Source of the DNA: Terriglobus tenax
GTDB taxonomy: Bacteria > Acidobacteriota > Terriglobia > Terriglobales > Acidobacteriaceae
Direction of reading: 5' to 3'
Assembly (NCBI RefSeq): GCF_025685395.1
Contig: NZ_JAGSYA010000004.1
Location: 1,984,001-2,048,000 of the forward strand
DNA: 64,000 nucleotides
Shown here: one piece after another, positions 16 to 35,400 of the stretch
Position numbering within the stretch: the stretch's first letter is position 1
How the letters are laid out: every line of letters starts with the position of its first letter
The notes under the pieces: generated by a model
What the model saw: only the letters and a program-made list of their open reading frames with translations
What the model was told of the DNA's origin: nothing
Database searches by the model: none
Translations under genes and position numbers: made by a program

Positions 16-1833
16 TTGCATCCAACGGGTTTGAGCACCGTGAACGAGGCACTTGCGAACGTGAAGAAAGCCGGCAGCGCGAACGACCCACTCTGGTACA
101 AAGACGCCATCATCTACGAGTTGCACGTGAAAGCCTTCTGCGACTCCAACAACGACGGCATTGGCGACTTCCCGGGCCTGGTCTCGAAGCTCGACTACCT
201 GCAGGACCTGGGCGTTACCTGCCTGTGGCTTCTGCCCTTTTTCCCTTCGCCTCTGCGGGACGACGGATACGACATCGCCGACTATGTCTCCGTCCACCCG
301 GCCTACGGCACGCTGGACGACTTCAAGCTCTTCCTCAATGAGGCTCACCGGCGCGGCATGCAGGTGGTCATCGAACTGGTGGTGAACCACACCAGTGACC
401 AGCATCCCTGGTTCCAGCGCGCACGCAAAGCTCCCGCTGGCTCCCCTGAGCGCGAGTTCTATGTCTGGTCCGACACCGACAAGAAGTATCCCGGCGTGCC
501 CATCATCTTCAAAGACACGGAGAAGTCCAACTGGACCTGGGATGAAGAGGTCGGCATGTACTACTGGCACCGCTTCTTCCATCACCAGCCGGATCTGAAC
601 TTCGACAATCCGCTGGTTTTTGAGGAAGTGGTCAAGGCGCTGCGCTTCTGGCTCGACCTCGGCGTGGACGGCTTCCGCCTGGACGCCATCCCCTACCTGG
701 TCGAACGCGACGGTACCCGCTGCGACGCCCTGCCCGAGACGCACGAGATCATCAAAAAGATCCGCGCCATTATCGACGACGAATACACCAGCCGTTTTCT
801 GCTGGCCGAGGCCAACCAGTGGCCCGAAGATGTGCGCCCCTTCTACGGCGATGGAGACGAGTGCAACATGTGCTTCCACTTTCCGCTGATGCCGCGCATT
901 TACATGGCTCTGCGGCAGGAAGACCGCCTGCCCATCACCGACATCATGACGCGCACGCCGCCCATCCCGGACAACTGCCAGTGGGCGCTCTTCCTGCGTA
1001 ACCACGATGAGCTGACGCTGGAGATGGTCACCGACGACGAACGCGACTACATGTACCTGGCCTACTCGGCCGACCCGCGCATGCGCATCAATGTGGGCAT
1101 CCGCCGCCGTCTGGCTCCGCTGGTGGACAACAACCGCCGCCGCATTGAGCTGCTCAACTCCATCCTGCTCAGCTTCCCAGGAACGCCCATCATCTACTAC
1201 GGCGACGAGATCGGCATGGGAGACAACATCTACCTGGGCGACCGCAACGGAGTCCGCACGCCCATGCAGTGGAACGGCGACCGCAACGCCGGCTTCTCCC
1301 GCGCTAACCCGGAGAAGCTCTACTCCCCCGTCATCATGGACCCCATCTGGGGCTACCAGACCATCAACGTGGAGGCACAGCAGGCCGACACCTCATCGCT
1401 GCTGCACTGGACGCGCAACATGGTGGCGCTACGCAAGCTCTTCCAGGTCTTCGGCCGCGGCTCGCTCGAATTCCTGACTCCCGACAACCGCAAGGTGCTG
1501 GCCTATATTCGCGAGTGGGATGGCGAAAAGGTGGTCTGCGTCGCCAACCTGTCGCGCTTCGCGCAGCCGGTCTCGCTCGATCTCTCCCGCTTCGCCGGCA
1601 TGATGCCGGTGGAGATGCTGGGCTACGTCCCCTTCCCCATCATCGGCGAAGAGCCCTACCCGCTGACGCTGGCCCCCTACAGCTTCTTCTGGCTGGAACT
1701 GCAAACCGCCCCCGCCCAACCCGACCTGCTCACCCAGCAGCAACAGCACGAACCGGCAAAAGACTTACTGTTGTTCACCGAACCAGTCGGCCATCCCGTA
1801 GAAGAGATTCCGGGCCCACCGGAACTTGGCTAA
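16..1833 (+). CDS. treS: Trehalose synthase / maltose alpha-D-glucosyltransferase (GH13)
   Basis: Interconverts maltose and trehalose in the cytoplasm. The protein opens with the TreS-type stretch [16 protein letters not shown] (about residues 26-41), followed by GH13 elements: the substrate loop ending [12 protein letters not shown], nucleophile Asp in [11 protein letters not shown], acid/base Glu in LLAEANQW, and the HD pair in [14 protein letters not shown]-terminal beta domain ends near residue 560, followed by a Gln/Pro-rich tail. About 600 residues means a stand-alone TreS, not fused to maltokinase. The start is uncertain: TTG16, TTG31 and GTG40 are in frame and no stop lies upstream inside the window, so the true start could lie outside. 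The next gene begins 42 bases downstream, suggesting an operon. Confidence 0.9.
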
Positions 1834-1875
1834 CGTATAGCACCTCCACTGCAACTAAACTGCTTTGAGAGCACG

Positions 1876-3069
1876 ATGTCGACCACTGCCGTTCCCCAAC
1901 CATCGACCAGCACGCCGCAGGCATCCACGCCCGCGCTGCTGCTCGCCCTGCCGCTGCTGGACCATGAGCAGTTACAGGCCGCTTTCAGCCACCTGGCCGC
2001 ATCGCTCGCGGGTCTGCCTGTCCTTGTGGCTTATCCTGGCGAGGCGGAAGAGCCGCTCCACTTCCCTTTGCCCACGGTTGCCGTTACACCCTCAGCGCCG
2101 GTCGCACGCATCCCCTGGGTCCACACCGCCGCCGAGTACCTGAACGTCCACAAGCTGCTGACCGAGTACCAGTTGCCCCGCTGCCTGCTGCTTGGCGCCG
2201 AGTTCTGGACCCTGGCGCCTGAGTGTCTTCGCACCCTGGTTACCATCGCCATCGACAGCAATGCCGACCTGGTGCTGCCTCGCTACACCACCTCACCCTA
2301 CGATGCGCTGGTCAACAACATCATCCTTGCGCCGGTGACGCGTGCTCTTTTTTCCGTCAAGGCGCATACCCCCCAGCCGCTCGATGTCGTCTTCTCCGCG
2401 CGCATGGCGGAGCGCCTGGCCACCGTTGCACAGCGCTACACCGCCGCCAACCAGAACGACGCCCTGCTCTGGCCCGTTGGGGAAGCCTGTTCCGCCGGCT
2501 TTACCGTGCAGGAGGTGCCCATGGGCACCCGGTCGTTCCCGGTACCGGAGGTCACCGACCTGACCCAGTTGCTGACGCTGGTCGCCGGCTCGCTCTTCAC
2601 CGAGGTTGAGGCCAAGGCCACCTACTGGCAGCGCGCACGCCCCCAGGCCGCCGTCGCCGGCACCGCCCCGCTCACCTTCAGCGAGGAGCCGCCCCGGCCC
2701 GACGTCTCCACCATGATCGAGACCTTCCGCATCGGCTACCAGAACCTCTCCGAGATCTGGTCTCTGGTGCTGCCGCCCAACTCTCTGCTCGGCCTCAAAA
2801 AGCTCTCTGTCCTGGAACAGGAGACCTTCTTCATGCCGGACGCCCTCTGGGTGCGCATCGTCTATGACTTTCTTCTGGCCTGGCGCCTGCGCACCATCAA
2901 CCGGGCACACCTGCTGGGCGCACTGACGCCGCTCTACCTGGCGTGGGTGGCGGGCTATATCCTCGGCGGCAAGCAGCAGGCGCATCTTGAAGCGCTGGCC
3001 GCCGCCTTTGACTCTGACAAGCCGTACCTGGTCTCGCGCTGGCGCTGGCCGGACCGCTTCAATCCATAA
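1876..3069 (+). CDS. Glycosyltransferase-like protein, apparently degenerate
   Basis: Protein of 397 residues. The segment around residues 130-175 (NADLVLPRY, SPYDALVNNIILAPVTRALF) resembles the region of GT2-type glucosyl/mannosylglycerate synthase relatives where bacterial members read like APYY-KYDGTITN-I-YPLTRALYG. The nucleotide-sugar DxD expected just upstream is not visible: that position reads LLGAEFW. The first 50 residues are Ser/Thr/Pro/Ala-rich. The C-terminal half (from about 270) is helical and resembles nothing I can name. It lies between treS and an MscS-like membrane protein on the same strand, which suggests a compatible-solute or osmotic role; that is inference. The ATG follows a weak purine-rich GAGAG. 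Confidence 0.5.
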   Translation: MSTTAVPQPSTSTPQASTPALLLALPLLDHEQLQAAFSHLAASLAGLPVLVAYPGEAEEPLHFPLPTVAVTPSAPVARIPWVHTAAEYLNVHKLLTEYQLPRCLLLGAEFWTLAPECLRTLVTIAIDSNADLVLPRYTTSPYDALVNNIILAPVTRALFSVKAHTPQPLDVVFSARMAERLATVAQRYTAANQNDALLWPVGEACSAGFTVQEVPMGTRSFPVPEVTDLTQLLTLVAGSLFTEVEAKATYWQRARPQAAVAGTAPLTFSEEPPRPDVSTMIETFRIGYQNLSEIWSLVLPPNSLLGLKKLSVLEQETFFMPDALWVRIVYDFLLAWRLRTINRAHLLGALTPLYLAWVAGYILGGKQQAHLEALAAAFDSDKPYLVSRWRWPDRFNP

Positions 3070-3115
3070 CCGCGATCCTGCGAACGAAATATGACCCCCG
3101 AAAGGAGACAACACG

Positions 3116-3838
3116 ATGTGGCAACAGGTTCATGAGGCCCTTTACGGCTCAGCCCACCGTGTCCTGTCACGGCTGGCCAGCCTTCTTCCCGGGCTGGTAG
3201 CGCTGCTGCTGGCCATACTCATCTGCACGCTGATCGGCGCCGCCCTGGCATGGGTGGTGCGCCGCATCCTTACCGCGTTCAAGTTCGACGACCGCATCAA
3301 CTCCGGCGCCCCCACCAGCGTCTCGGACTTTGCCCCGCGCCGCTCCGCCACGCTGCTCATCTCCCGCGTCGTGCTGTGGGGATTCGTCGTGCTCGGCTTC
3401 ATCATCGGTATCTCCACGCTCGATGTTTCGGCCGACTCCAAAGACCAGATGACGGTCTTCTTCCTGCCCTACGTTACGCACTCGGTCGGGGCCATCATCA
3501 TCTTCCTCATCGGCAACCTGGCGGCCCGGTTCCTGGCGCGGACCGTGCTGATCGGTGCCGTGAATATGCGCCTGCAATACGCGCGCATTCTGTCGCTCGG
3601 CATCAAGTGGCTGGTGCTGGTGCTCACCGCCGCCATGATCCTGGACCACCTGCAGATTGGCGGAGCCATCATCGAGCTGGCCTTCGGCATCCTCTTCGGC
3701 GGTATCGTGCTCACGCTGTCACTCGCCGTCGGCCTGGGCTCCCGCGACATGGTCTCCCGCTCGCTCGAAAAAAATACGCCGCAGGACCCGTTCCCCACGC
3801 CGCCACCCCAGGAGAAACCGCAGGTCCGGCATTTTTAG
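3116..3838 (+). CDS. MscS-like conserved TM-helix membrane protein
   Basis: Inner-membrane protein of 240 residues with about five hydrophobic helices (near residues 22-46, 80-102, 115-142, 158-176 and 184-208). The last ends in LAVGLGSRDMVSR, like the pore-helix end of MscS-type channels and the conserved TM-helix repeat family. No large cytoplasmic beta domain of full MscS follows; the tail is short and Pro-rich. The ATG has a good AGGAGA ribosome site nine bases upstream, 46 bases after the previous stop. It ends tail-to-tail with the TetR gene, the two stops overlapping by four bases. Clustering with treS makes a turgor-related role plausible but unproven. Confidence 0.7.
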   Translation: MWQQVHEALYGSAHRVLSRLASLLPGLVALLLAILICTLIGAALAWVVRRILTAFKFDDRINSGAPTSVSDFAPRRSATLLISRVVLWGFVVLGFIIGISTLDVSADSKDQMTVFFLPYVTHSVGAIIIFLIGNLAARFLARTVLIGAVNMRLQYARILSLGIKWLVLVLTAAMILDHLQIGGAIIELAFGILFGGIVLTLSLAVGLGSRDMVSRSLEKNTPQDPFPTPPPQEKPQVRHF

Positions 3839-4431
3839 CGGAGCAGCTCCTGGACCAGGTCGCGGTGATTCAATGCAGGAATCGCCTGTCCTGTCAGCGC
3901 ACTACTGAACGCACGGAAGAAGGACGCCGACATAAGCAAAGCAGCCACCGTCTCCACGTTGACATGTTCGGGGATCCTGCCCAGCTTCTGCTCTGCATCC
4001 AGATAGCGGGCGATGCGTGCAATGCCGCCACGTGGCCCCTTCGCGCGGCTGTCCAGGCTCTGCCGGAAGCTGGCAAGCAGCTCCGGCTCCGCAAACAAAG
4101 AGGACACCATAGGCGCCACGCGCTCATGGAAACGCTGTAACCCCAGCATGGCCGCCGCCAGGTTACGTTCCGGAGTCAGCATGCCTGCACTCTCCTCCAG
4201 CTTCCGCAACGGAATCAGCATCTCCGGCAGACTTTGCTCCAGCACTGCCAGCAGCAGTTGGGTACGGCCGGAGAAATGGACGTAGATCGCGCCTTCCGAG
4301 CAGGGCACAGCCTCCGCAATCGCTCGCGTGGTCACACCGCTCAGGCCTCGTTCCCGCAGCAGAGTTTCAGCGGCCAGCACAATCTCGGTCTTGCGGTTTC
4401 GTTTGGGGCTTTTCCCGGTCGGCTTCGGCAT
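3835..4431 (-). CDS. TetR/AcrR family transcriptional regulator
   Basis: Typical TetR length (198 residues) with the N-terminal helix-turn-helix at about residues 18-62: ETLLRERGLSGVTTRAIAEAV then CSEGAIYVHFSGRTQLL. The C-terminal ligand-binding half is variable and gives no clue to the inducer. The gene is divergent from a small membrane protein starting at 4520, and the 88-base gap contains a near-palindrome (4488-4501) suited to such a repressor. The likely role is repression of itself and of that membrane protein; the target is inferred from position only. Confidence 0.88.
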   Translation of the reverse strand: MPKPTGKSPKRNRKTEIVLAAETLLRERGLSGVTTRAIAEAVPCSEGAIYVHFSGRTQLLLAVLEQSLPEMLIPLRKLEESAGMLTPERNLAAAMLGLQRFHERVAPMVSSLFAEPELLASFRQSLDSRAKGPRGGIARIARYLDAEQKLGRIPEHVNVETVAALLMSASFFRAFSSALTGQAIPALNHRDLVQELLR

Positions 4432-4487
4432 CTGCCGCCATTGTAATTTTTTTGGAACTTCCAGATGGATTCAGGAGTATTAAACAT

Positions 4488-4501
4488 AGTGAGCACTCAC
4501 T
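4488..4501. promoter_or_regulatory. Candidate TetR operator
   Basis: Inverted repeat AGTGAG-CA-CTCACT with perfect six-base arms, in the gap between the divergent TetR and membrane-protein genes, 19 bases before the membrane-protein ATG. TGAGTGAGTGCTCACT-like palindromes are common operators of TetR-family repressors. Binding is inferred. Confidence 0.5.
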
Positions 4502-4519
4502 CATCATGGAGTCGATCCG

Positions 4520-4942
4520 ATGAACCGCCTTCTGCTTTCCAGAATCCTCCTCAGCTTTATCCTCGTCTTTGGCAGTGCCATGTCCTTTGTTCTGGACTGG
4601 AGCCGCAATCACCTGCTCAACCCGCTTTGGCACCCGCACGCCCGTTTCCACTCCGCCGTCCTGCTGTTCTTCTTCGCCGGCGTGGCGGCTACTGGATTGT
4701 GGCTTTTATGGCGTGAGAACGACCCCAGGGCGGGTGTTACCGCAGCGGCAGCGCTCTCCGCCTCCTACTGGATGCCTTTCTTCTTCGTTCCGCTGGTGTT
4801 ACCGCAGGCTTCGTACTGGGCGGGCACACCCGGGCATGAACCCCACTTTCATGGGATGATCTTCTACCCGAACCTGCTGGTGATCGGGCTGTTTCTTATG
4901 CTGACCCTGATTGCGTGGGGAATCGGAAGAAAAGCAGCCTAG
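4520..4942 (+). CDS. Small integral membrane protein of unknown function
   Basis: 140 residues with roughly four hydrophobic segments: about 6-24, 43-64, 73-97 and 114-135. The loop between the last two is rich in His and Pro (GTPGHEPHFHGM). I do not recognise a characterised family. The ATG follows GGAG at an eight-base spacing. Divergence from the TetR gene, with a palindrome in the shared promoter gap, suggests it is that regulator's target, perhaps a transporter-like or stress membrane protein. Its stop overlaps the stop of scpA on the other strand by four bases. Confidence 0.65.
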   Translation: MNRLLLSRILLSFILVFGSAMSFVLDWSRNHLLNPLWHPHARFHSAVLLFFFAGVAATGLWLLWRENDPRAGVTAAAALSASYWMPFFFVPLVLPQASYWAGTPGHEPHFHGMIFYPNLLVIGLFLMLTLIAWGIGRKAA

Positions 4943-5829
4943 CGCCAGTCGTCGCGCACGGCTTCCTGCTCTTCCATCACGCGGTCAAAGTCTTCCGACT
5001 TCTTGATCATGATGTCGCCGAAGGCTTCGCCCTGGCGCAGCAGAACCGCCTGCAGCCTTACCAGTTCCAGCATTGCCAGGAACATGCAGATCAGAGCGCG
5101 CTGCGAGTGCGTGTTGAGCAGCAGCTTCCGCAAAGAGACCGGACGGTCTTCCATCACCATGCGGCGTTTCACGTAGTCGATCATCTGCGCCACCGTGACC
5201 GATTCCTCGTCCACGTTCAGCACCGGTCGCGACTTTACGCGGTCCAGAATTTCCTGGAAGACACGCACCAGGTCGACCGTGTCGGCCGCAATCTCGCGGT
5301 CGCCTTCGGTAATCTGCTTGAAGTCGCGCAGGCCCGGATTGGTCCACACCGCTTCTTCAATCTGCTGCTTCTGCAGCAGCATCTGCGCGGCTGCCTTGAA
5401 CTTCTCGTGCTCCAGCAGCCGTTCCACCAGCTCGCGGCGAGGATCTTCCGCCTCTCCGGCGGCCACCTCGGCGGCCTCGCGCGGCAGCAGCATCTTGCTC
5501 TTGATGTGGATCAGCAGCGAGGCCATGTAGATGAACTCGCCCGCCGCGTCCACGTCCGTCTGCTTCAGGTGCTCGCAGTAGGCCAGGAACTGCTGGGTGA
5601 TCTTCGCGATCGGGATGTCGTAAATATCGATCGACTGCTTGCGGATCAGGTCCAGCAGCAGGTCCAGCGGGCCTTCATACACCTGACCCACCAGGATGGA
5701 GAACGGCGACTGCGACGCCTCTTCCTTGGCAGGATCGGGGCGCTTGGGGTCAACCCTGGCAGGCACGGACGCAGACGCAGCCTCGGGGGCTGCGGTCTGC
5801 GTCGGCTCGATGATGGTCTCTTCCGGCAT
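4939..5829 (-). CDS. scpA: Segregation and condensation protein A
   Basis: Kleisin subunit of the bacterial SMC condensin, bridging SMC heads and binding ScpB. The diagnostic N-terminal stretch FSILVGQVYEGPLDLLLDLI followed by IDIYDIPIAKITQQFLAY is intact, and the C-terminal winged-helix (VSLRKLLL...ALICMFLAMLELVRLQAV) is present. The start is set at the ATG at 5829, giving MPEETIIEP. A longer frame to a TTG at 5889 abuts the helicase stop and adds a non-conserved tail. The first 35 residues after the chosen start are Ala/Pro-rich. The partner scpB lies 8 kb away (13721-14770) rather than next door. Confidence 0.93.
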   Translation of the reverse strand: MPEETIIEPTQTAAPEAASASVPARVDPKRPDPAKEEASQSPFSILVGQVYEGPLDLLLDLIRKQSIDIYDIPIAKITQQFLAYCEHLKQTDVDAAGEFIYMASLLIHIKSKMLLPREAAEVAAGEAEDPRRELVERLLEHEKFKAAAQMLLQKQQIEEAVWTNPGLRDFKQITEGDREIAADTVDLVRVFQEILDRVKSRPVLNVDEESVTVAQMIDYVKRRMVMEDRPVSLRKLLLNTHSQRALICMFLAMLELVRLQAVLLRQGEAFGDIMIKKSEDFDRVMEEQEAVRDDWR

Positions 5830-5889
5830 CCGTACTATTTTAGGCTGTGGCTCGTCGCGGAAAAATAGGAGAAAACTCCCCTTCCGCAA

Positions 5890-7311
5890 TTACCGGCGGC
5901 GGCGTCCTGCAGAACGTCCACCCGACGACGGACGGCTCGAGGAGCTGCCCGAGGAGGAACGGCCACTGCTGCGGCGGCGTCCACCACCGCCACTGCCGCT
6001 TCCCTTGGAAGCCGGCGCAGGTGCCGCATTCGGATCGTTCTTCCACGAACGGGTCTCCAGCGCCAGCAGCGCGCCGATATCGTTCATGTCGATCTTGCCC
6101 AGGTCCACCGGAGAGTTCCGCTCTTCCTTCTCCAGCGTCTTGTGGTCAACCTCAATCCACTTGAAGCTGAAGGTCAGCTCGCGTTCCAGCTTCTTGGCTT
6201 CGCCGCGCTCCTGCGGCATCACGTAGGTGGTCGCTGTACCCGTCGCGCCCGCGCGTCCGGTGCGGCCAATGCGGTGGACAAAGTCGTCCGACGCATTGGG
6301 CAGGTCGTAGTTCACCACGTGCGCAATGTGCGAGATATCGATACCGCGCGCCGCGACGTCCGTGGCCACCAGGATGCGGTGGTTGCCATCGGCAAAGCTC
6401 TTCAGAGCAGCTGTACGCTGCGACTGCGAGCGGTCACCGTGGATAACCGTGGCATCGTGGCCCAGCTTCTGCAGCTTGCGGGCAATGCGGTCGGCGCCAT
6501 GCTTGGTGCGTGAAAACACCAGGAAGCTGCCCTCGTGCTCCTTCAGTTCCTTGTCCAGCAAGGCCAGCTTCTGGTCCTGCATCACGATGAACGCGCGCAG
6601 GTTCACGCGCTCGGTCGGCTTGCTGGTGGTGCCAATCTTGATGCGGACCGGCTGCTTCACGTAGTCCGACAGAACGTGCTCGATGTTGGCGTCCAGCGTG
6701 GCGGAGTAGCACATCGTCTGGCGCGTCTTCGGCAAAGCGCCCACAATGCGGCGGATCGAGGGCAGGAAGCCCATGTCCAGCATGCGGTCCACTTCGTCCA
6801 GCACCAGGATCTCAACGTGCTTCAGGTTCACCTCGCCGCGCTTCACAAAGTCTTCCAGGCGGCCCGGGGTGGCAACCACCAGGCGCGGTCCACGGCGAAG
6901 CTGGTCCAGCTGCTGACCTTCGCTCAGACCGCCCACCACCAGTACGGAATCCTTCTTGGCGTTCGGCTCAATCTTCGAATAGCCCTCAATCACCTGCATC
7001 GCCAGCTCGCGGGTCGGCAGCAGGATCAGCGCACGAATCGGCTTCTTCACCTCAGAGGTCGACGGGCGGCTCTCCAGGCGGTGGATCAGCGGAATCAGGA
7101 AGCTCAGCGTCTTGCCGGTGCCGGTCGCGGCCGTGGCTAGAACATCCTTACCCTCCAGCGCCGGGGGAACTGCACCCGCCTGCACCGGAGTGGGCGTAAT
7201 GAACTTGGCCTTGGTCAGTCGCTGCTTCAGCTCAGGGGAGACAGCAAAGTCGGAAAATTGAACGGTAGGGGTGGAAACAGGGGTAGGTTCTGCGGAAATC
7301 GTCTTGGTCAA
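5890..7311 (-). CDS. DEAD-box ATP-dependent RNA helicase (RhlE-like)
   Basis: Unwinds structured RNA, probably in ribosome assembly or cold adaptation. Motifs in order: Q motif (FITPTPVQ, 38-45), Walker A AATGTGKT (61-68), PTRELA (99-104), GG, TPGR (148-151), motif II as DEVD (172-175) instead of DEAD, SAT (203-205), and HRIGRTGRAG near 340. The tail from about 425 is a Gly/Ser/Arg-rich low-complexity RNA-binding extension, as in RhlE-type helicases. The start appears to be TTG at 7311, as no in-frame ATG lies before the conserved region. The change to Val in motif II keeps both acidic residues, so ATPase activity should be retained. Confidence 0.93.
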   Translation of the reverse strand: MTKTISAEPTPVSTPTVQFSDFAVSPELKQRLTKAKFITPTPVQAGAVPPALEGKDVLATAATGTGKTLSFLIPLIHRLESRPSTSEVKKPIRALILLPTRELAMQVIEGYSKIEPNAKKDSVLVVGGLSEGQQLDQLRRGPRLVVATPGRLEDFVKRGEVNLKHVEILVLDEVDRMLDMGFLPSIRRIVGALPKTRQTMCYSATLDANIEHVLSDYVKQPVRIKIGTTSKPTERVNLRAFIVMQDQKLALLDKELKEHEGSFLVFSRTKHGADRIARKLQKLGHDATVIHGDRSQSQRTAALKSFADGNHRILVATDVAARGIDISHIAHVVNYDLPNASDDFVHRIGRTGRAGATGTATTYVMPQERGEAKKLERELTFSFKWIEVDHKTLEKEERNSPVDLGKIDMNDIGALLALETRSWKNDPNAAPAPASKGSGSGGGGRRRSSGRSSSGSSSSRPSSGGRSAGRRRR

Positions 7312-28642: not shown

Positions 28643-31600
28643 ATGGCGGAGCTATGGGCGGAATCGAGCCGCGTCTTGCAACAGTTCACTCGCACTGCCT
28701 CTGGTTTGCTGTCCCTGCTTCTTTTTTCATGCGCCGGCCTTGCGCAAACCTCCGTCTCCATTCACGACATCATGACAAACATGCCGAACTCACCTTACCT
28801 GGGCAAGAGCGTCTCGACCTCCGGCATCGTTGTCGGCGTGATGACTACCGGCGGCTTCTACATCTCAGAACCCAGCGGCAACTGGGACAACAGCGTGGCC
28901 ACCGCCGAGGGCATCCCCGTCTTCTATGCGGCCGGAGCCAACCCCGCCTGCGCCGTGGTGGGAAACACCGTGACCGTGGTGGGCATGGTGACCAATACCA
29001 CCGCTCTGACCGCCGCGAATACCCCAGGCACGGGCATTACGCCGACCTCCTGCACGACGACCGCCACCGGCGGAACCATGACGCAGTCCATCTCGGTGAG
29101 CGGCGTGCTGACCAGCTTTGGCGACGCGCTGAAGTACACCGGTATGACGACCTCCGCCACGTTTTACGCCGTTTCGCCCACCGGCGGAACGCTGGATGAG
29201 GCGACCGAAACGGTGACCTCGAACGGCCAGTTCTGGGCGACGCTGAACTCGAACAGTGCTACCAACAACCACCTGTTCCGCGCAACGGGCATCGCGGGCG
29301 ATGAGTATGTACCCACGGGCGCTCCCGGCACGGTGGCGACCTGGGGCGGCAATCCGCAGCGCATTCTGATTGATACGACCACCTTTGGCGGCACGGCAGT
29401 GGATATCACCGTGGGACAGACGATCAGCTGCACTACGGGGGCAAACATTAAGGTGGGTGCGACGGCGGGTATCGGCCTGATTGACTACACGCTGGGCTAT
29501 GCGCGGCTACTCGTCTTCCCCACCAGTGTCTGCACTGTGGGCGGCAGTGTCGCCACCACCACCTCGGCTACGGCGGACTCCACGCACTTCCAGGTGGGCA
29601 CGCTGGATCTGAACCGCTTCTACTCGACCACGGGAGCGACGACCGGGTCCGTAGCTATCAGCGCGGCTGCCTATACGCGCCGCCTGACCAAGGCAGCACT
29701 GGCCATTGTGAACTCACTGGGCACGCCGGACATTCTGAGCGTGCAGGAGGTGCAGGACCAGGCCACGCTGAACGATCTTGCCAACGCGGTGAACACACTG
29801 GCGGGCACCAGCTACCAGGGCTACCTGGGGTTGACTAACGATACGAACAGCCTGAACCCTGGCTTCCTGGTGAATACCTCGCGTATCGATGTGGAGTCTG
29901 TAGCGCAGGTAGGCGCCAGCACCACGTACAGCGGAGGGACGCTGTTTGAGCGGCCTCCACTGATGCTGAAGGCGGGTGTACACCGGGTGGGGAAGAACTA
30001 CCCGGTGACGGTGATCAACGTGCACCTGGCCAGCCGCGACAACATTGGCGACACCACGCTGGGTGCCGATGTTCGCGCTCGCCGCGCAGCGCAGGCCTAT
30101 TTCGTAAGCCAGCTAGTGCAGACCGAGCAGGATGCCGGAGAGAACGTTCTGGTAAACGGCAACTTCAACGCCACGGAGTTCAGCGACGGCTATGTGGATG
30201 TGCTGGGCGTCATCCGAGGATCGCCGGCGGCGGCAACCGCCGTGACGCTGTATCAAGCGACGGCCACGACCGGAGCTTTGCAGAACTTCACCAGGAGCGT
30301 GACCACCCTGCAGCGCTATAACGCGATTACGCGGGGCAACTCGGAGGCGGTGGAGCATATTCTTGCGTCTTCTACCGTGACCGCATCGACCACGGCGCAG
30401 AACTCGCTGGCCAGCTATGAGACCAGCGTGGTGCAGCCGCACTTCTCCGCGGACTTCGCGGCGGCGAACGCCAACAGCTCCTCCACCGCCGCCGGATTGA
30501 CGGCCAACGATGGCCAGGTGGTCAGCTTCCTGATTCCCGCCGTGCCGACCTCGGCTACGGTCTCTGCCAGCTCACTGAGCTTTGGCGATGTGTATGTTGG
30601 CGGCTCGAAGTCGCTCTCGGTGACGGTACAGAACACCTCGGGCTTTACCTCGACGGTGAACGTAAGCAACATCGCCATCAGCGGCACCAATGCGGGCGAT
30701 TACACGCAGACTTCTGACTGCCTGTCGCTGGCGGACCAGGCGACCTGCACCGTGACCGTCACCTTTGCACCGACGGCGATCGGCACGCGCGCGGCCACCC
30801 TGACCATCACGACCGATGCAACCACGGGATCGGCGATGACAGTATCGCTGACCGGCAATGGACTGCCCACCACGGCAACGCTGTCACCCACCAGCGCCAG
30901 CTATGGCAACGTGGTGCTGAACTCGACCAGCACGGCGCAGACCTTTACCTGGACCAACACCAGCACGATTGCGCTGAAGGTAAGCTCCGCAACGGTGAGC
31001 AGCGGCTGGACCATTGCCGCGAACAATTGCGGCACGGTGGCCGCCTCATCAAGCTGCACGGTGCTGGTGGCTTTTGCACCGGCGGCGCTGGGAACACAGA
31101 CCGGGACGCTGACCCTTACCTCCACCAGCAGCGTGAATGGCACGTTGACCGCATCCCTGACCGGTCGCGGCGTGGCAGACGTGGAAGCTTCCCCGACCTC
31201 ACTCAGCTTTGGCAACGTGGATCTTGGTCTTCGCTCCGCGGCGCAGGCAGTGACCATCACCAACTACACCAACGCGGCCATCGCGCTAACTTCCCTCTCG
31301 ATTACAGGCGACTACGCCTACACCACCACCTGCGGCGGCACGCTGGCGGGGCTTGCCAGCTGCACGGCGACCATCACATTTACGCCGACCACCACCGGTA
31401 CACGCACCGGCACGTTGACCATCAATACCAACGACACCAAGGTGCCGGTGGTAACGGTTGCGCTGACCGGCAACGGCGTGGACTTCTCCATCGCCTTGAA
31501 CCCCGCATCGGGCAACACGATTGCGGGCTACTCGCTGGCTTCCACGGTGACGTTGACGCCGATCGGCGGATTCAACGGGACGGTGAACCTGAGCTGCTCC

Positions 31601-31987
31601 ACCACGGCAGGCGGCACGAAGTGCGGCTTCGCCAGCAGCTCACCCACCTTCTCGGCGGTAACGACGGATGCGTTGACCATCACCACAACCTCGCAGTACC
31701 AGGTCATTGGTTATACCGGCGGCTTTGGTGGGTGGATGGCTGTCTTCGCAGCAGCAGGAGGAGCACTGCTGTGGTTTGCCCGCAGGCGTGTGCAGGGCAT
31801 GATGCGGCTGGCCGCTCTCTGTGCATTGGCACTGGCCGTCCTGCTGCCGCTGGGCGGTTGCAGCGGTAAGCTGCCGGGCAGGAACACCGACCCCACCTAT
31901 CCCGGCACGTACACCATCACCGTGTCCGCCACGGACGGGACCCTGACGCGGTCTGCCACGTACACCATGACCGTTACCGCCAAGTAG
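28643..31987 (+). CDS. Secreted protein with degenerate endonuclease/phosphatase domain and Ig-like repeats
   Basis: 1114 residues. A signal peptide lies near residues 18-35 (GLLSLLLFSCAGLAQ). About 35-320 is OB/beta-rich. About 345-630 resembles the endonuclease/exonuclease/phosphatase fold: DILSVQEVQ (Glu369) and VINVHLAS (His461) are kept, but the GDFN motif reads GNFN (506-509) and the final SDH reads AND-G near 620, so catalysis is doubtful. Three choice-of-anchor-D/ASPM-like Ig domains follow (about 635-960, e.g. SFGDVYVGGSKSLSVTVQNTS). Near the C-terminus a hydrophobic helix, an Arg stretch (FARRRVQGMM), another helix and LLPLGGCSG are followed by a short beta module. An extracellular or surface role is likely. 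The start is weakly supported; TTG at 28676 is an alternative. Confidence 0.72.
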   Translation: MAELWAESSRVLQQFTRTASGLLSLLLFSCAGLAQTSVSIHDIMTNMPNSPYLGKSVSTSGIVVGVMTTGGFYISEPSGNWDNSVATAEGIPVFYAAGANPACAVVGNTVTVVGMVTNTTALTAANTPGTGITPTSCTTTATGGTMTQSISVSGVLTSFGDALKYTGMTTSATFYAVSPTGGTLDEATETVTSNGQFWATLNSNSATNNHLFRATGIAGDEYVPTGAPGTVATWGGNPQRILIDTTTFGGTAVDITVGQTISCTTGANIKVGATAGIGLIDYTLGYARLLVFPTSVCTVGGSVATTTSATADSTHFQVGTLDLNRFYSTTGATTGSVAISAAAYTRRLTKAALAIVNSLGTPDILSVQEVQDQATLNDLANAVNTLAGTSYQGYLGLTNDTNSLNPGFLVNTSRIDVESVAQVGASTTYSGGTLFERPPLMLKAGVHRVGKNYPVTVINVHLASRDNIGDTTLGADVRARRAAQAYFVSQLVQTEQDAGENVLVNGNFNATEFSDGYVDVLGVIRGSPAAATAVTLYQATATTGALQNFTRSVTTLQRYNAITRGNSEAVEHILASSTVTASTTAQNSLASYETSVVQPHFSADFAAANANSSSTAAGLTANDGQVVSFLIPAVPTSATVSASSLSFGDVYVGGSKSLSVTVQNTSGFTSTVNVSNIAISGTNAGDYTQTSDCLSLADQATCTVTVTFAPTAIGTRAATLTITTDATTGSAMTVSLTGNGLPTTATLSPTSASYGNVVLNSTSTAQTFTWTNTSTIALKVSSATVSSGWTIAANNCGTVAASSSCTVLVAFAPAALGTQTGTLTLTSTSSVNGTLTASLTGRGVADVEASPTSLSFGNVDLGLRSAAQAVTITNYTNAAIALTSLSITGDYAYTTTCGGTLAGLASCTATITFTPTTTGTRTGTLTINTNDTKVPVVTVALTGNGVDFSIALNPASGNTIAGYSLASTVTLTPIGGFNGTVNLSCSTTAGGTKCGFASSSPTFSAVTTDALTITTTSQYQVIGYTGGFGGWMAVFAAAGGALLWFARRRVQGMMRLAALCALALAVLLPLGGCSGKLPGRNTDPTYPGTYTITVSATDGTLTRSATYTMTVTAK

Positions 31988-32010: not shown

Positions 32011-32050
32011 GCGGGGCAGCCCGACACTCCAGGCTGCTCCGCATTTTTTT
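32011..32050 (+). terminator. Strong intrinsic terminator
   Basis: GCGGGGCAGCC (32011-32021) pairs with GGCTGCTCCGC (32032-32042), 11 pairs with one G-U, followed by ATTTTTTTG. It ends transcription of the preceding gene and directly abuts the promoter of the cys operon. Confidence 0.88.
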
Positions 32051-32052
32051 GC

Positions 32053-32058
32053 TAGAAT
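32053..32058 (+). promoter_or_regulatory. Candidate -10 element of the cys operon
   Basis: TAGAAT, one mismatch from TATAAT, preceded by GC (GCTAGAAT). It ends seven bases before the ATG of the Cys-rich leader, where transcription would start. No convincing -35 box: that region overlaps the terminator stem. Confidence 0.5.
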
Positions 32059-32065
32059 CAAGAGA

Positions 32066-32107
32066 ATGCGCCGCGTCTTTACAGACCGCTGTTGTTGTCT
32101 TCTCTAA
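32066..32107 (+). CDS. Leader peptide with three consecutive cysteine codons
   Basis: A 13-codon frame, MRRVFTDRCCCLL, then TAA, 63 bases before cysD. Codons 9-11 are TGT-TGT-TGT. Given the -10 box at 32053-32058, the ATG would lie at or next to the transcription start, so the mRNA would be leaderless for this peptide. In mycobacteria, leaderless short frames with runs of Cys codons are known to act as cysteine-responsive attenuators in front of sulfur genes. Here the downstream operon is cysD-cysN-cysH, so the same logic is plausible: slow decoding of the Cys codons under cysteine shortage would favour expression. The 63-base spacer (32108-32170) shows no clear terminator or anti-Shine-Dalgarno helix, so the mechanism is open. 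Confidence 0.65.
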   Translation: MRRVFTDRCCCLL

Positions 32108-32170
32108 GCGCCCTTCCCGCGCCCGCGCATTGTTCTTCCCTATTTACATATCTGGATTCACCCGGAGCCT

Positions 32171-33124
32171 ATGAGTACCCTTCTTCCCACTGACGCCGCA
32201 TCGTCCGTTGCCGAGCTGCTGACGCCGCGCAAGATGGACCACCTTCGCGCGCTGGAGGCTGAGAGCATCTTCATTCTGCGCGAGGCGGTGGCCGAGTTTG
32301 CCCGCCCCGTCATGCTCTACTCCATCGGCAAGGATTCGAGCGTCATGCTGCGCCTGGCGCAGAAAGCCTTCTACCCCGGCAAGTTCCCTTTCCCGCTGCT
32401 GCACATTGACACCAGCTACAAGTTTCCGGAGATGATCAGCTTTCGCGATAACTACGCCAAGGAGATTGGCGCGGACCTGATTGTGCACCGCAACGAGAAG
32501 GCCATTGCCGACGGCGCGAACCCGCTCGACCTGGGAACGCAGAACTGCTGCGGCCTGCTGAAGACACGCTCTCTGCTGGATGCCCTGGAAGAGGGCGGCT
32601 ACGACGCTGCCTTTGGCGGCGCTCGCCGTGATGAAGAGAAGAGCCGGGCGAAGGAACGCGTGTACAGCTTCCGCGACGGCAACGGACAGTGGGACCCCAA
32701 GAACCAGCGGCCGGAGCTGTGGCAGACCTATAATTCCCGCCTGAAGAAGGGTGAGAGCATCCGCGTGTTTCCGTTGTCGAACTGGACGGAACTCGATATC
32801 TGGCTCTACCTGTACGCCGAGCAGATTCCTATTGTGCCGCTGTACTTTGCACGCGAGCGCGAAGCGGTGATCCGCAGCGGGCAGATCACGCTGACCTATC
32901 CGAACACGCGTCTGCTGCCGGGCGAAAAGATTGAGCCGGTGATGTGCCGGATGCGCAGCCTGGGCTGCATGCCCTGCACGGGCGCGATCCGCAGCGAGGC
33001 AGACACGATTGAAAAGATCATAGCGGAACTGATCAGCTTCCGCAGGTCAGAGCGTGAGAACCGCGCGATTGACCACGACGAAGAGGGATCGATGGAAACC
33101 AAGAAGCGGGAGGGCTACTTCTAA
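32171..33124 (+). CDS. cysD: Sulfate adenylyltransferase subunit 2
   Basis: Catalytic subunit making adenosine 5'-phosphosulfate (APS) from sulfate and ATP with CysN. The PP-loop is [13 protein letters not shown] (about residues 57-69). [43 protein letters not shown] and [14 protein letters not shown] are all standard for CysD. Length 317, as usual. GGAG lies five bases before the ATG. It is the first gene of a tight operon: its TAA is followed at once by the ATG of cysN. Expression is probably under control of the Cys-rich leader at 32066. Confidence 0.96.
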
Positions 33125-34708
33125 ATGGCAACGACCGCCGTAAATACCCCCAACGACTTCCGCGAGTTTCTGGACGCGCACCTGGATCGCGACCTGCTGC
33201 GCTTTACCACCGCCGGATCCGTGGACGATGGCAAGAGCACACTGATTGGCCGCCTGCTGCATGACACAAAGAGCGTGTACGAGGACCAGCTCGCATCCGT
33301 TGCGAAGAGCCGTGTGAACCGCGCCGGCAATGGCCGCGTGGACTTGTCCCTGCTGACCGACGGCCTGCGTGCCGAGCGCGAGCAGGGCATCACGATTGAT
33401 GTGGCGTATCGTTACTTCGCGACCTCGAAGCGCAAGTTCATCATTGCCGACACGCCGGGCCACGAGCAGTACACGCGCAACATGGCTACCGGAGCCTCGA
33501 CCGCCGATGTCGCGATTGTGCTGGTCGACGGATCGAAGGGCATTCTGCCGCAGTCGCGCCGCCATTCGTTCATCGCATCGCTGCTGGGCATTCCGCATGT
33601 GGTCGCCGCCGTGAACAAGATGGACCTTGTTGGCTACGACGAGGCGAAGTTCCGCACCATTGAGACCGACTTCCGCGCCCTGGCCAGGCGCCTTGGCCTG
33701 CGCAATGTGGAGATCATCCCGGTCTCCGCGCTGGAAGGCGATAACGTCGTTAGCCCCTCTACCAACATGGCCTGGTACGGCGGCCCCACGCTGCTGGATT
33801 ACCTGGAGACGGTGCCGTTGCGCGAGCATGTGGCCAACCAGCCGTTGCGCTTCCCGGTACAGCTTGTCGTGCGCCCCGACCGTACCTTCCGTGGCTTTGC
33901 CGGACAGGTGGCCAGCGGCGTGGTGCGCGAAGGTCAGCATGTTGTGGCGCTGCCCAGCGGACGCCGCACGCAGGTGAAACGCATTGTGACCTGGGACGGC
34001 GACCTGAAGGCCGCGGGTCCGGGCGAAAGCATCACGCTGGAGCTGGCCGACGAGATTGACCTGAGCCGCGGCGAGATGCTGATCTCGCCCGATGCGCAGG
34101 CCAACTCCGTGCCCACCGTCAGCAATGCCTTTGGAGCGAAGGTGGTGTGGATGCACGAGGAGCCGCTGGAGGTGGGTAAGACCTACCTGCTGAAGCAGAC
34201 CTCGCGCGTGGTGCGCGCCGAAGTAAAGCGCATTCCCTACCGCGTCGACGTGAACACCTTTGAGCATCTGGATGCGGCTGAACTGAAGATGAACGACATT
34301 GCGGAGGTTGAGTTTGAGACCAACCTGCCGCTGTTCTTCGATACCTATCGCGACAACCGCGTAACGGGCGCAGCGATCCTGATCGATCCGCTGAGCAACG
34401 CGACGGTGGGCGCGCTGATGATCGACCGTGCTGTTGAAGCCGCGAAGAAGGCCGAGCTTCCGAAGCTGATCGCCGTAAAGGACACCACCGTTGCCACGCG
34501 CCTGCGCGAACTGCTGGCCGCTGCCGGACATCGCGCCGTCGTGCTGCAGGGCTTTACCGCTGCCGAGGTTCCCGTGGCGGTCCGCGCCCTGCAGCTTGCC
34601 GGAGTCATTGCGATTGTTGCCGGAGACGCGGAGGGCGCAGTCTCCATCACCGCTACCGACGATGCCGCGCTGACCGCGGCCCTGGTGGAGATGGGAGTGA
34701 CCGTATGA
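33125..34708 (+). CDS. cysN: Sulfate adenylyltransferase subunit 1 (GTPase), with C-terminal extension
   Basis: EF-Tu-like GTPase that drives APS synthesis by CysD. G1 is GSVDDGKST (residues 31-39), G3 DTPGHEQY, G4 NKMD, then two beta-barrel domains. Members without a fused kinase have about 430-475 residues; this one has 527. The extra 95 residues (from about 433) read like a shrunken APS-kinase domain: VATRLRELLAAAGHRAVVLQG and RALQLAGVIAIVAG mimic the helix-strand rhythm of CysC, but the P-loop GxxxxGKS/T is missing. A dead CysC remnant is my inference. It starts directly after the cysD stop and overlaps cysH by four bases (ATGA). Confidence 0.94.
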   Translation: MATTAVNTPNDFREFLDAHLDRDLLRFTTAGSVDDGKSTLIGRLLHDTKSVYEDQLASVAKSRVNRAGNGRVDLSLLTDGLRAEREQGITIDVAYRYFATSKRKFIIADTPGHEQYTRNMATGASTADVAIVLVDGSKGILPQSRRHSFIASLLGIPHVVAAVNKMDLVGYDEAKFRTIETDFRALARRLGLRNVEIIPVSALEGDNVVSPSTNMAWYGGPTLLDYLETVPLREHVANQPLRFPVQLVVRPDRTFRGFAGQVASGVVREGQHVVALPSGRRTQVKRIVTWDGDLKAAGPGESITLELADEIDLSRGEMLISPDAQANSVPTVSNAFGAKVVWMHEEPLEVGKTYLLKQTSRVVRAEVKRIPYRVDVNTFEHLDAAELKMNDIAEVEFETNLPLFFDTYRDNRVTGAAILIDPLSNATVGALMIDRAVEAAKKAELPKLIAVKDTTVATRLRELLAAAGHRAVVLQGFTAAEVPVAVRALQLAGVIAIVAGDAEGAVSITATDDAALTAALVEMGVTV

Positions 34709-35400
34709 GCGTTGCTACGCCTGTCGAGTACGAATCGCTGAACGCCGAGCAACTGGCCGCGCAGATCTTTGCCGAGTTCACCGGCGTGCCCGCGTGCTTT
34801 ACCTGCAGCTTCCAGACGGAAGACATGGTGGTTCTCGACATCCTGCGCAAACAGCAGCCGGAGATCCCCGTCATCTTTCTGGAGACCGGCTACCACTTTG
34901 CCGAGACGTATGAGTACCGCGACCGCATGGTGCGCGAGTGGAAGCTGAACCTGATCAATGCCCTGCCCGAGGACACGAAGGCCGAGCATGAATCGAAGCG
35001 CGGCCTGCTCTACATCGTGAACCCGACCGAGTGCTGCAACCTGCGCAAGGTGGGTCCGCTGATGAAGTCGCTGGAGCCATACGGCGTGTGGTTCACCGGC
35101 CTGCGCCGTGAGCAGTCGCCCACGCGCGCCAACCTGAAGAAGGTGGAAGACCACCGCACACCCAACGGCCACGAGCTGAAGAAGATCTCGCTGCTGGCCG
35201 ACTGGACCTGGGACCAGGTGACCGCGTACGCGAAGCAGCACGCCATTCCCGAGCTGCCGCTGTATGCGAAGGGATATACGTCGATTGGCTGCGAGCCGTG
35301 CACGGCTATCTCCACCGACCCGAACAACGCCCGCGCCGGACGCTGGGGCGGCAAGAAGCTGGAGTGCGGCATTCACACGTTCAGTGAGAAGACAGAGTAG
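34705..35400 (+). CDS. cysH: Adenylyl-sulfate reductase (assimilatory, iron-sulfur type)
   Basis: Reduces APS to sulfite with thioredoxin. Beyond the catalytic ECGIH (Cys221), it has the Cys-Cys pair at 110-111 (NPTECCNL) and CxxC at 196-199 (IGCEPC), together binding a [4Fe-4S] cluster, which marks APS rather than PAPS reductases. Other motifs: SFQTEDMVVLDI, ETGYHFAETYEYRD, GLRREQSPTR. Length 231 is normal. Its ATG overlaps the cysN stop by four bases, so translation is coupled. Direct use of APS explains why no separate cysC is present. A strong terminator follows at 35418. Sulfite reductase genes are not in the window. Confidence 0.95.
   Translation: MSVATPVEYESLNAEQLAAQIFAEFTGVPACFTCSFQTEDMVVLDILRKQQPEIPVIFLETGYHFAETYEYRDRMVREWKLNLINALPEDTKAEHESKRGLLYIVNPTECCNLRKVGPLMKSLEPYGVWFTGLRREQSPTRANLKKVEDHRTPNGHELKKISLLADWTWDQVTAYAKQHAIPELPLYAKGYTSIGCEPCTAISTDPNNARAGRWGGKKLECGIHTFSEKTE

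Follow-up and report, generated by a model that had tools for sequence, protein, structure and literature searches.

A Cys-rich short frame upstream of cysDNH in Terriglobus tenax as a probable leaderless, cysteine-sensing leader peptide

Analysis of a 64,000-nucleotide stretch of Terriglobus tenax DNA (hereafter, the window) revealed a 13-codon open reading frame just upstream of the sulfate-assimilation genes cysDNH that very likely acts as a leaderless, cysteine-sensing leader peptide with a readout based on ribosome stalling. The frame itself, its conservation, its codon choice, the spacing of its promoter, and the terminators of its relatives were established by sequence comparison. In the model that we infer for where transcription starts, for translation and stalling, for the sense of the control, and for the Rho/Shine-Dalgarno (SD) readout in the window, a ribosome would start at the ATG without an SD site and read three TGT codons near the end of the frame. 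With Cys-tRNA in ample supply, the ribosome would run to the stop codon and leave, and the downstream leader would enter its off state; with Cys-tRNA scarce, it would stall on the TGT run and cysDNH would be on. An intrinsic terminator would form the off state in approximately half of the relatives, as well as before a reductase gene elsewhere in the genome, as in classical transcription attenuation. In the cysDNH leader of the window, most likely, a hairpin at the SD sequence and start codon would keep cysD poorly translated, and Rho would load on the C-rich untranslated leader and end transcription.

Organization of the cysDNH leader

All the features described here lie on the + strand. The small and large subunits of sulfate adenylyltransferase are encoded by cysD (32171–33124) and cysN (33125–34708), and a (phospho)adenylyl-sulfate reductase by cysH (34705–35400); the three products pass the curated NCBIfam cut-offs (NF009214 and TIGR02039 for CysD, NF003478 and TIGR02034 for CysN, and NF002537 and TIGR00434 for CysH). 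Directly 5' of the leader lies a gene (28643–31987) for a large protein in which choice-of-anchor D domains are accompanied by a lipo-invert C-terminal anchoring domain (NF058595). The end of this gene is followed by a terminator-like hairpin read from the sequence, GGGGCAGCC-N10-GGCTGCTCC plus 7 T (32013–32050; 9-bp stem, 10-nt loop), which abuts the promoter; this intrinsic terminator of the upstream gene is absent from one hairpin list, which was restricted to loops of at most 8 nt. The promoter contains an extended -10 element, TGCTAGAAT (32050–32058), in which TAGAAT (32053–32058), present in all five sequences of the clade, is preceded by TG. Seven nucleotides separate it from the ATG at 32066, which opens the predicted leaderless frame (32066–32107; ATG CGC CGC GTC TTT ACA GAC CGC TGT TGT TGT CTT CTC TAA), encoding MRRVFTDRCCCLL. 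The three TGT codons, the candidate sensor, occupy 32090–32098, the stop codon 32105–32107, and a gap of 63 nt leads to the ATG of cysD at 32171. Direct reading thus bore out what an earlier sequence-only reading had described, namely a 13-codon frame with three adjacent TGT codons between a strong terminator and cysD, with its ATG seven bases 3' of a TAGAAT -10 box. An Rfam scan of 19 loci at the gathering score matched no leader family, its sole match being a tRNA in one locus (L007).

Conservation of the Cys-rich frame upstream of cysD

CysD matches, some of them weak, were obtained in 91 of 200 genomes of the family, 18 of 19 of the genus, and 181 of 299 of the class; in the named-genome scan the best 80 of 150 loci were kept, and part of the matching genomes was fetched. 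Of 250 loci, 240 contained cysD; these came down to 201 distinct loci, 199 of them with 300 or more bases of upstream sequence. The loci come from related genomes and are non-independent data, which makes the p-values given below optimistic. A frame was scored when it began with ATG or GTG, spanned 6–45 codons, and contained three or more Cys with CC or CxCxC among them, and frames with a -10 box were ranked first in real and control sequences alike. Ranking by Cys count alone picked a GTG frame at the window locus that proved to be unrelated and was dropped.

In a first set of 159 distinct loci, a frame with at least 3 Cys was detected in 130; the reverse strand gave 11, and 20 dinucleotide shuffles averaged 13.1 (maximum 19). 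When a -10-like hexamer 4–12 bases 5' of the start was also demanded, 83 of the 159 loci remained, as opposed to 3 on the reverse strand and a shuffle mean of 1.35. The final set comprised 176 loci outside one negative clade, of which 147 matched; after the removal of four long GTG frames, 143 were retained, leaving 29 loci without a frame. The sequence-only reading had proposed to check whether frames 5' of cysD in further Acidobacteriota genomes keep the Cys run and let the remaining codons drift, and these 143 loci agree with it: the Cys codons stay, and length and other residues change. In the negative clade (L211–L233), only 1 of 23 loci showed a Cys frame despite a related cysD (60–77% identity), which argues against a scan artefact; its loci were hand-picked from f6 and f4, two further families in a class listing that also contains f5, f8, and f9.

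The clade of the window consists of five distinct sequences (L001, L003, L004, L092, and L104), in which the three TGT codons are invariant and the other changes are synonymous (codons 6 and 12, and the stop), except for Phe/Leu at codon 5. One genome of the 19-genome genus set matches Terriglobus albidus DSM 26559 exactly in a 320-base comparison spanning the start of cysD (L004 and L115). Another locus (L188), from a record titled Betaproteobacteria bacterium, carries an acidobacterial-type cysD at 77% identity and probably belongs to a mislabelled bin.

Promoter spacing and leaderless start

The earlier suggestion that the mRNA may begin at the start codon is supported, although not proven, by the -10 spacing and the lack of SD motifs. 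Across the 143 loci, TANNNT-like boxes upstream of the longest ATG frame peak 6–12 bases 5' of the start (12, 16, 4, 12, 12, 7, and 8 counts, 71 in total), against a background of 0.23 per position further upstream, and an SD-like motif precedes the frame in only 5. Transcription starts approximately 7 bases after a -10 box, which would place +1 at the ATG of the window, whereas with boxes 9–12 bases away the leader would be a few bases long. The window transcript probably begins at the ATG at 32066 or within a few bases of it. The four other clade members have the ATG 9 nt and an in-frame GTG 6 nt from TAGAAT, so the exact start may differ. In three Acidobacteria genomes, the predicted share of leaderless genes averages 13.3% (PMC3160421).

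Codon choice in the leader frames

Cys codons are TGT in 611 of 796 cases (77%) in the leader frames, compared with 44 of 656 (7%) in cysD of the same loci, a reversal that was not observed for the Phe, Tyr, His, Asn, Asp, or Ile codons in the same comparison. The leaders of the reductase gene described below are likewise TGT-rich (88 of 134 vs. 6 of 199). Usage depends on position: TGT accounts for 67% of isolated Cys codons and, within runs, for 93% of the first, 90% of the middle, and 66% of the last codons. The preference is lost before G (38 TGT, 56 TGC). Both Cys codons are read by a single tRNA with anticodon GCA, which would make TGT the wobble codon and, plausibly, the one decoded more slowly.

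Terminators and antiterminators in relatives

The absence of a terminator from the spacer, pointed out in the sequence-only reading, holds for the cysDNH locus of the window but neither for the family nor for the reductase leader of the same genome. A terminator between frame and cysD was detected in 69 of 130 loci of the first set, when 12.6 were expected from shuffles, and, with a stricter score, in 69 of the 143 loci of the final set. It begins at a median of 30 nt after the stop codon of the frame (interquartile range 28–34), beyond the stretch that a terminating ribosome covers in the model. No terminator was found by the scan in the 63-nt spacer of the window or in the other four members of its clade. 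In an unpicked split, a terminator is present in 14 of the 54 loci with at least 78% CysD identity; the figure of 1 of 42 loci for Acidobacteriaceae derives from a list made by hand with the result in view and is no independent test.

Folding models suggest that, in terminator-bearing relatives, a ribosome on the Cys codons favors an antiterminator. When the RNA was cut inside the terminator, the 5' arm paired upstream with a mean probability of 0.62 with the ribosome at the first Cys pair, compared with 0.40 with the ribosome at the stop codon (69 loci). The former value was higher by 0.1 in 48 loci and lower in 3 (Wilcoxon p ~2e-8), and the difference in shuffled sequences was 0.02. With the whole terminator present, equilibrium folding favored the terminator at every ribosome position (means 0.74–0.83); the value at the stop codon was above that at the first Cys pair in 15 and below it in 4 of the 69 loci, and the masked ribosome barely separated the two states. 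That the difference mostly disappears with complete terminators (0.74 vs. 0.83) would fit a kinetic decision, although this is a choice of the model. When antiterminators were sought by duplex energy instead, the signal exceeded that of shuffles only weakly (mean z -0.86, with 31% of values below -1.5, n = 67). In addition, the cysD start region of terminator-bearing loci was harder to open with the ribosome at the stop codon (p 0.00016; 32 up and 8 down of 69), an effect that, in this model, may reflect refolding alone.

A second leader upstream of a sulfite/nitrite reductase gene

The motif TGTTGTTGT occurs at 56 sites in the genome of the window, and the 55 located away from cysD were all read. 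One of them (L279; contig C4 near 659780, - strand) lies in a poly-Cys frame, MQTVQNACCCTAVGRCA, before a gene whose product contains the Pfam domains NIR_SIR and NIR_SIR_ferr. The nearest NCBIfam model is ferredoxin-nitrite reductase, with a score below all the cut-offs shown, so the enzyme is a putative sulfite reductase. The frame is preceded by a promoter-like arrangement (TTGACT, TAGCCT, and then seven bases to the ATG) and is leaderless-like, and a hairpin, GCCCGCG-7-CGCGGGC-TTTG, lies between the frame and the reductase gene. Thus, a Cys leader is found at more than one locus of the genome, before cysDNH and before a NIR_SIR reductase gene.

The reductase was matched in 113 of 150 genomes of the family, and 26 of the 30 best-scoring loci contained a leader frame (shuffle mean 1.8, maximum 3), all 26 with a terminator. 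A -10 box matching at least 4 of 6 positions was present in only 10 of these 26 leaders, and TTGAC at -35 distance in 20. The ribosome/antiterminator test gave a weaker result than for cysD (13 up and 4 down of 26, p 0.016; p 0.036 against shuffles), and no effect was detected in the reductase leader of the window's own genome (0.52 vs. 0.56).

Other short frames were observed. Before a sulfatase gene (L269; contig C3, 1144358) lies a GTG frame, VRNVFQHCSCCCTPSLA, with TACACT 7 nt upstream. It is not clearly conserved: one ortholog (L369) lacks the frame and another (L370) has a different one. Among 17 other sulfatase loci (L371–L387), a fixed-position scan, in which some matches begin inside the protein, found two further frames (L374 and L375). 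Sulfatases as a further target are, at this level of comparison, a lead only. One genus relative with a 3.5-Mb genome (G166) has 68 matches to the sulfatase query, vs. 0–29 in its congeners. Unproven leads in the genome of the window are also four CCC-containing short frames before genes for secreted or outer-membrane-like proteins (L356, L364, L304, and L261), all with hexamers matching 3–4 of the 6 positions of the -10 box near a start. The L356 frame is followed by a terminator-like hairpin, and the first 200 residues of the product encoded downstream gave no Pfam match.

Alternative explanations and readout of the cysDNH leader

That the frame arose by chance in an untranslated leader might be suggested by the window copy taken alone, with just 3 Cys in 13 codons, and is made extremely improbable by the conservation measured against shuffles, the reverse strand, and the negative clade. 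The Cys-rich frames could also encode a small functional protein, binding for instance metals or involved in redox reactions, rather than a sensor; translation is likely, and one peptide has up to 12 Cys. Nevertheless, frame length and the spacing and order of Cys differ between clades, it is the TGT codon and not the amino acid alone that is favored, and the frames sit 5' of sulfur genes and in many cases have a terminator at a constant distance, all of which renders this explanation very unlikely. Equally little probability is assigned to TGTTGTTGT being a DNA or RNA motif bound by a protein and not read as codons. The TGT preference, strongest within runs and before T, would fit such a motif, whereas the 67% TGT among isolated Cys codons and the existence of TGC variants and scattered Cys would not, nor would the location of 55 of the 56 genomic sites away from cysD. 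Moreover, 796 TGY triplets are in register with the start codon, compared with 176 and 97 in the two remaining frames, a comparison in which the scan itself selects for in-frame triplets.

With a cysteine-sensing leader peptide as the preferred reading, the question of how the window copy is read out concerns mainly two mechanisms. Hairpin-limited translation combined with Rho is favored from the sequence, in a nearly even balance with a purely translational readout. A C-rich, G-poor untranslated stretch follows the leader frame at 32111–32188 (31 C, 12 G, C/G 2.58) and is a candidate Rho-loading region. It is the best 78-mer tried at 32061–32250 (about 110 overlapping positions), only 0.05% of the + strand 78-mers of the window reach its C/G ratio, and it is suggestive only for Rho. 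Ranked by C over G among the + strand 63-mers, the 63-nt spacer reaches the 98.9th percentile, or the 95.6th when skews in both directions are considered. In 52 of 74 terminator-less loci, vs. 22 of 69 with a terminator, the C skew is no lower than the 95th percentile of the locus's own flanks, and a rho gene is present in the genome. On the other hand, a ribosome stalled on the Cys codons of the window would overlap the C-rich stretch by only a few bases, so stalling would not obviously block Rho.

In a purely translational readout, of the kind described in mycobacteria, the stalled ribosome would keep RNA structure off the cysD ribosome-binding site and no termination would be involved. This is a quite possible alternative, held with less than even confidence. 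It agrees with the failure of the scan to find a terminator in the window leader and with a predicted hairpin around the cysD SD sequence (GGAG, 32164–32167) and start codon (32147–32173; -5.6 to -6.1 kcal/mol), which is retained in all five clade members despite changes in its loop and flanks; besides, the cysteine case of M. smegmatis has been termed translation attenuation in one report (PMC13236596). Against it, the energy needed to open the cysD start region of the window is indifferent to ribosome position (8.6 kcal/mol free, 9.5 and 8.6 on the Cys codons, and 8.6 at the stop), opening was no easier with a stalled ribosome in terminator-less loci (n = 74, p 0.74), and the strong bias of C over G would be left unexplained.

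A putative ribosome-read cysteine regulon

Taken together, the data allow the tentative proposal, judged somewhat less likely than not, that this branch of the Acidobacteriota has a cysteine regulon read by the ribosome without a regulator protein. Leaderless leaders rich in UGU, a rare codon, would precede cysDNH, the sulfite/nitrite reductase gene, and possibly sulfatase genes, and one sensor would be coupled to two off-switches in the same cell, an intrinsic terminator for the reductase and, for cysDNH, Rho together with a hairpin at the start site, in a system evolved independently of mycobacteria. With such a regulon, cysteine sensing by the ribosome would no longer be confined to mycobacteria but would reach a second phylum, one abundant in soil. 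It would also suggest that leaderless initiation is able to drive classical transcription attenuators, offer a natural setting in which to ask why sensors use one of the two Cys codons, and hint at how sulfur assimilation is controlled in little-studied bacteria. Among the best matches listed from the open-licence literature, mostly 12–15 of 23 to 6,182 papers, there was no cysteine attenuator in Acidobacteriota.

Comparison with known systems

In the attenuators of the trp, his, and leu operons, a leader peptide with control codons governs the choice between alternative antiterminator and terminator structures, and leuL makes use of a rare codon. The acidobacterial leaders resemble them in the control-codon leader peptide and in the opposition of antiterminator and terminator, whereas in the classical systems the leader gene has an SD site and is part of a longer 5' leader, and the response is to other amino acids.

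A cysteine terminator-attenuator, the uORFC-8-2 motif, has been predicted before cysS in Rhodobacterales (PMC8632094). Like the acidobacterial leaders, it combines tandem Cys codons with an intrinsic terminator, and ribosome-mediated attenuation has been proposed. It differs in its position before cysS, in the dominance of UGC, and in a two-stem motif found in one order, whereas the frames of the Acidobacteriota are rich in UGU and have no SD motifs.

Leaderless polycysteine short ORFs of mycobacteria were reportedly tested by Canestrari in 2020, in work cited in PMC13236596. Cys-rich leaderless frames have been described before mycobacterial cysA2 and nirA (Shell 2015, PMC4633059), and Cys leader peptides without a conserved terminator hairpin had been predicted in mycobacteria, with Rho suggested (Seliverstov 2005, PMC1262725). 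The mycobacterial ORFs and the acidobacterial frames, whose leaderless nature is predicted here, share a short frame with a Cys run 5' of cys genes and of a nirA-type reductase gene, and both occur at more than one gene per genome. The acidobacterial frames are strongly biased to TGT. They differ from the mycobacterial type in the phylum and in the intrinsic terminator carried by about half of the cysD copies and by all 26 reductase copies. Convergence with mycobacteria rather than shared ancestry may account for the resemblance, and the terminator-less copy of the window is the closest match to the mycobacterial type.
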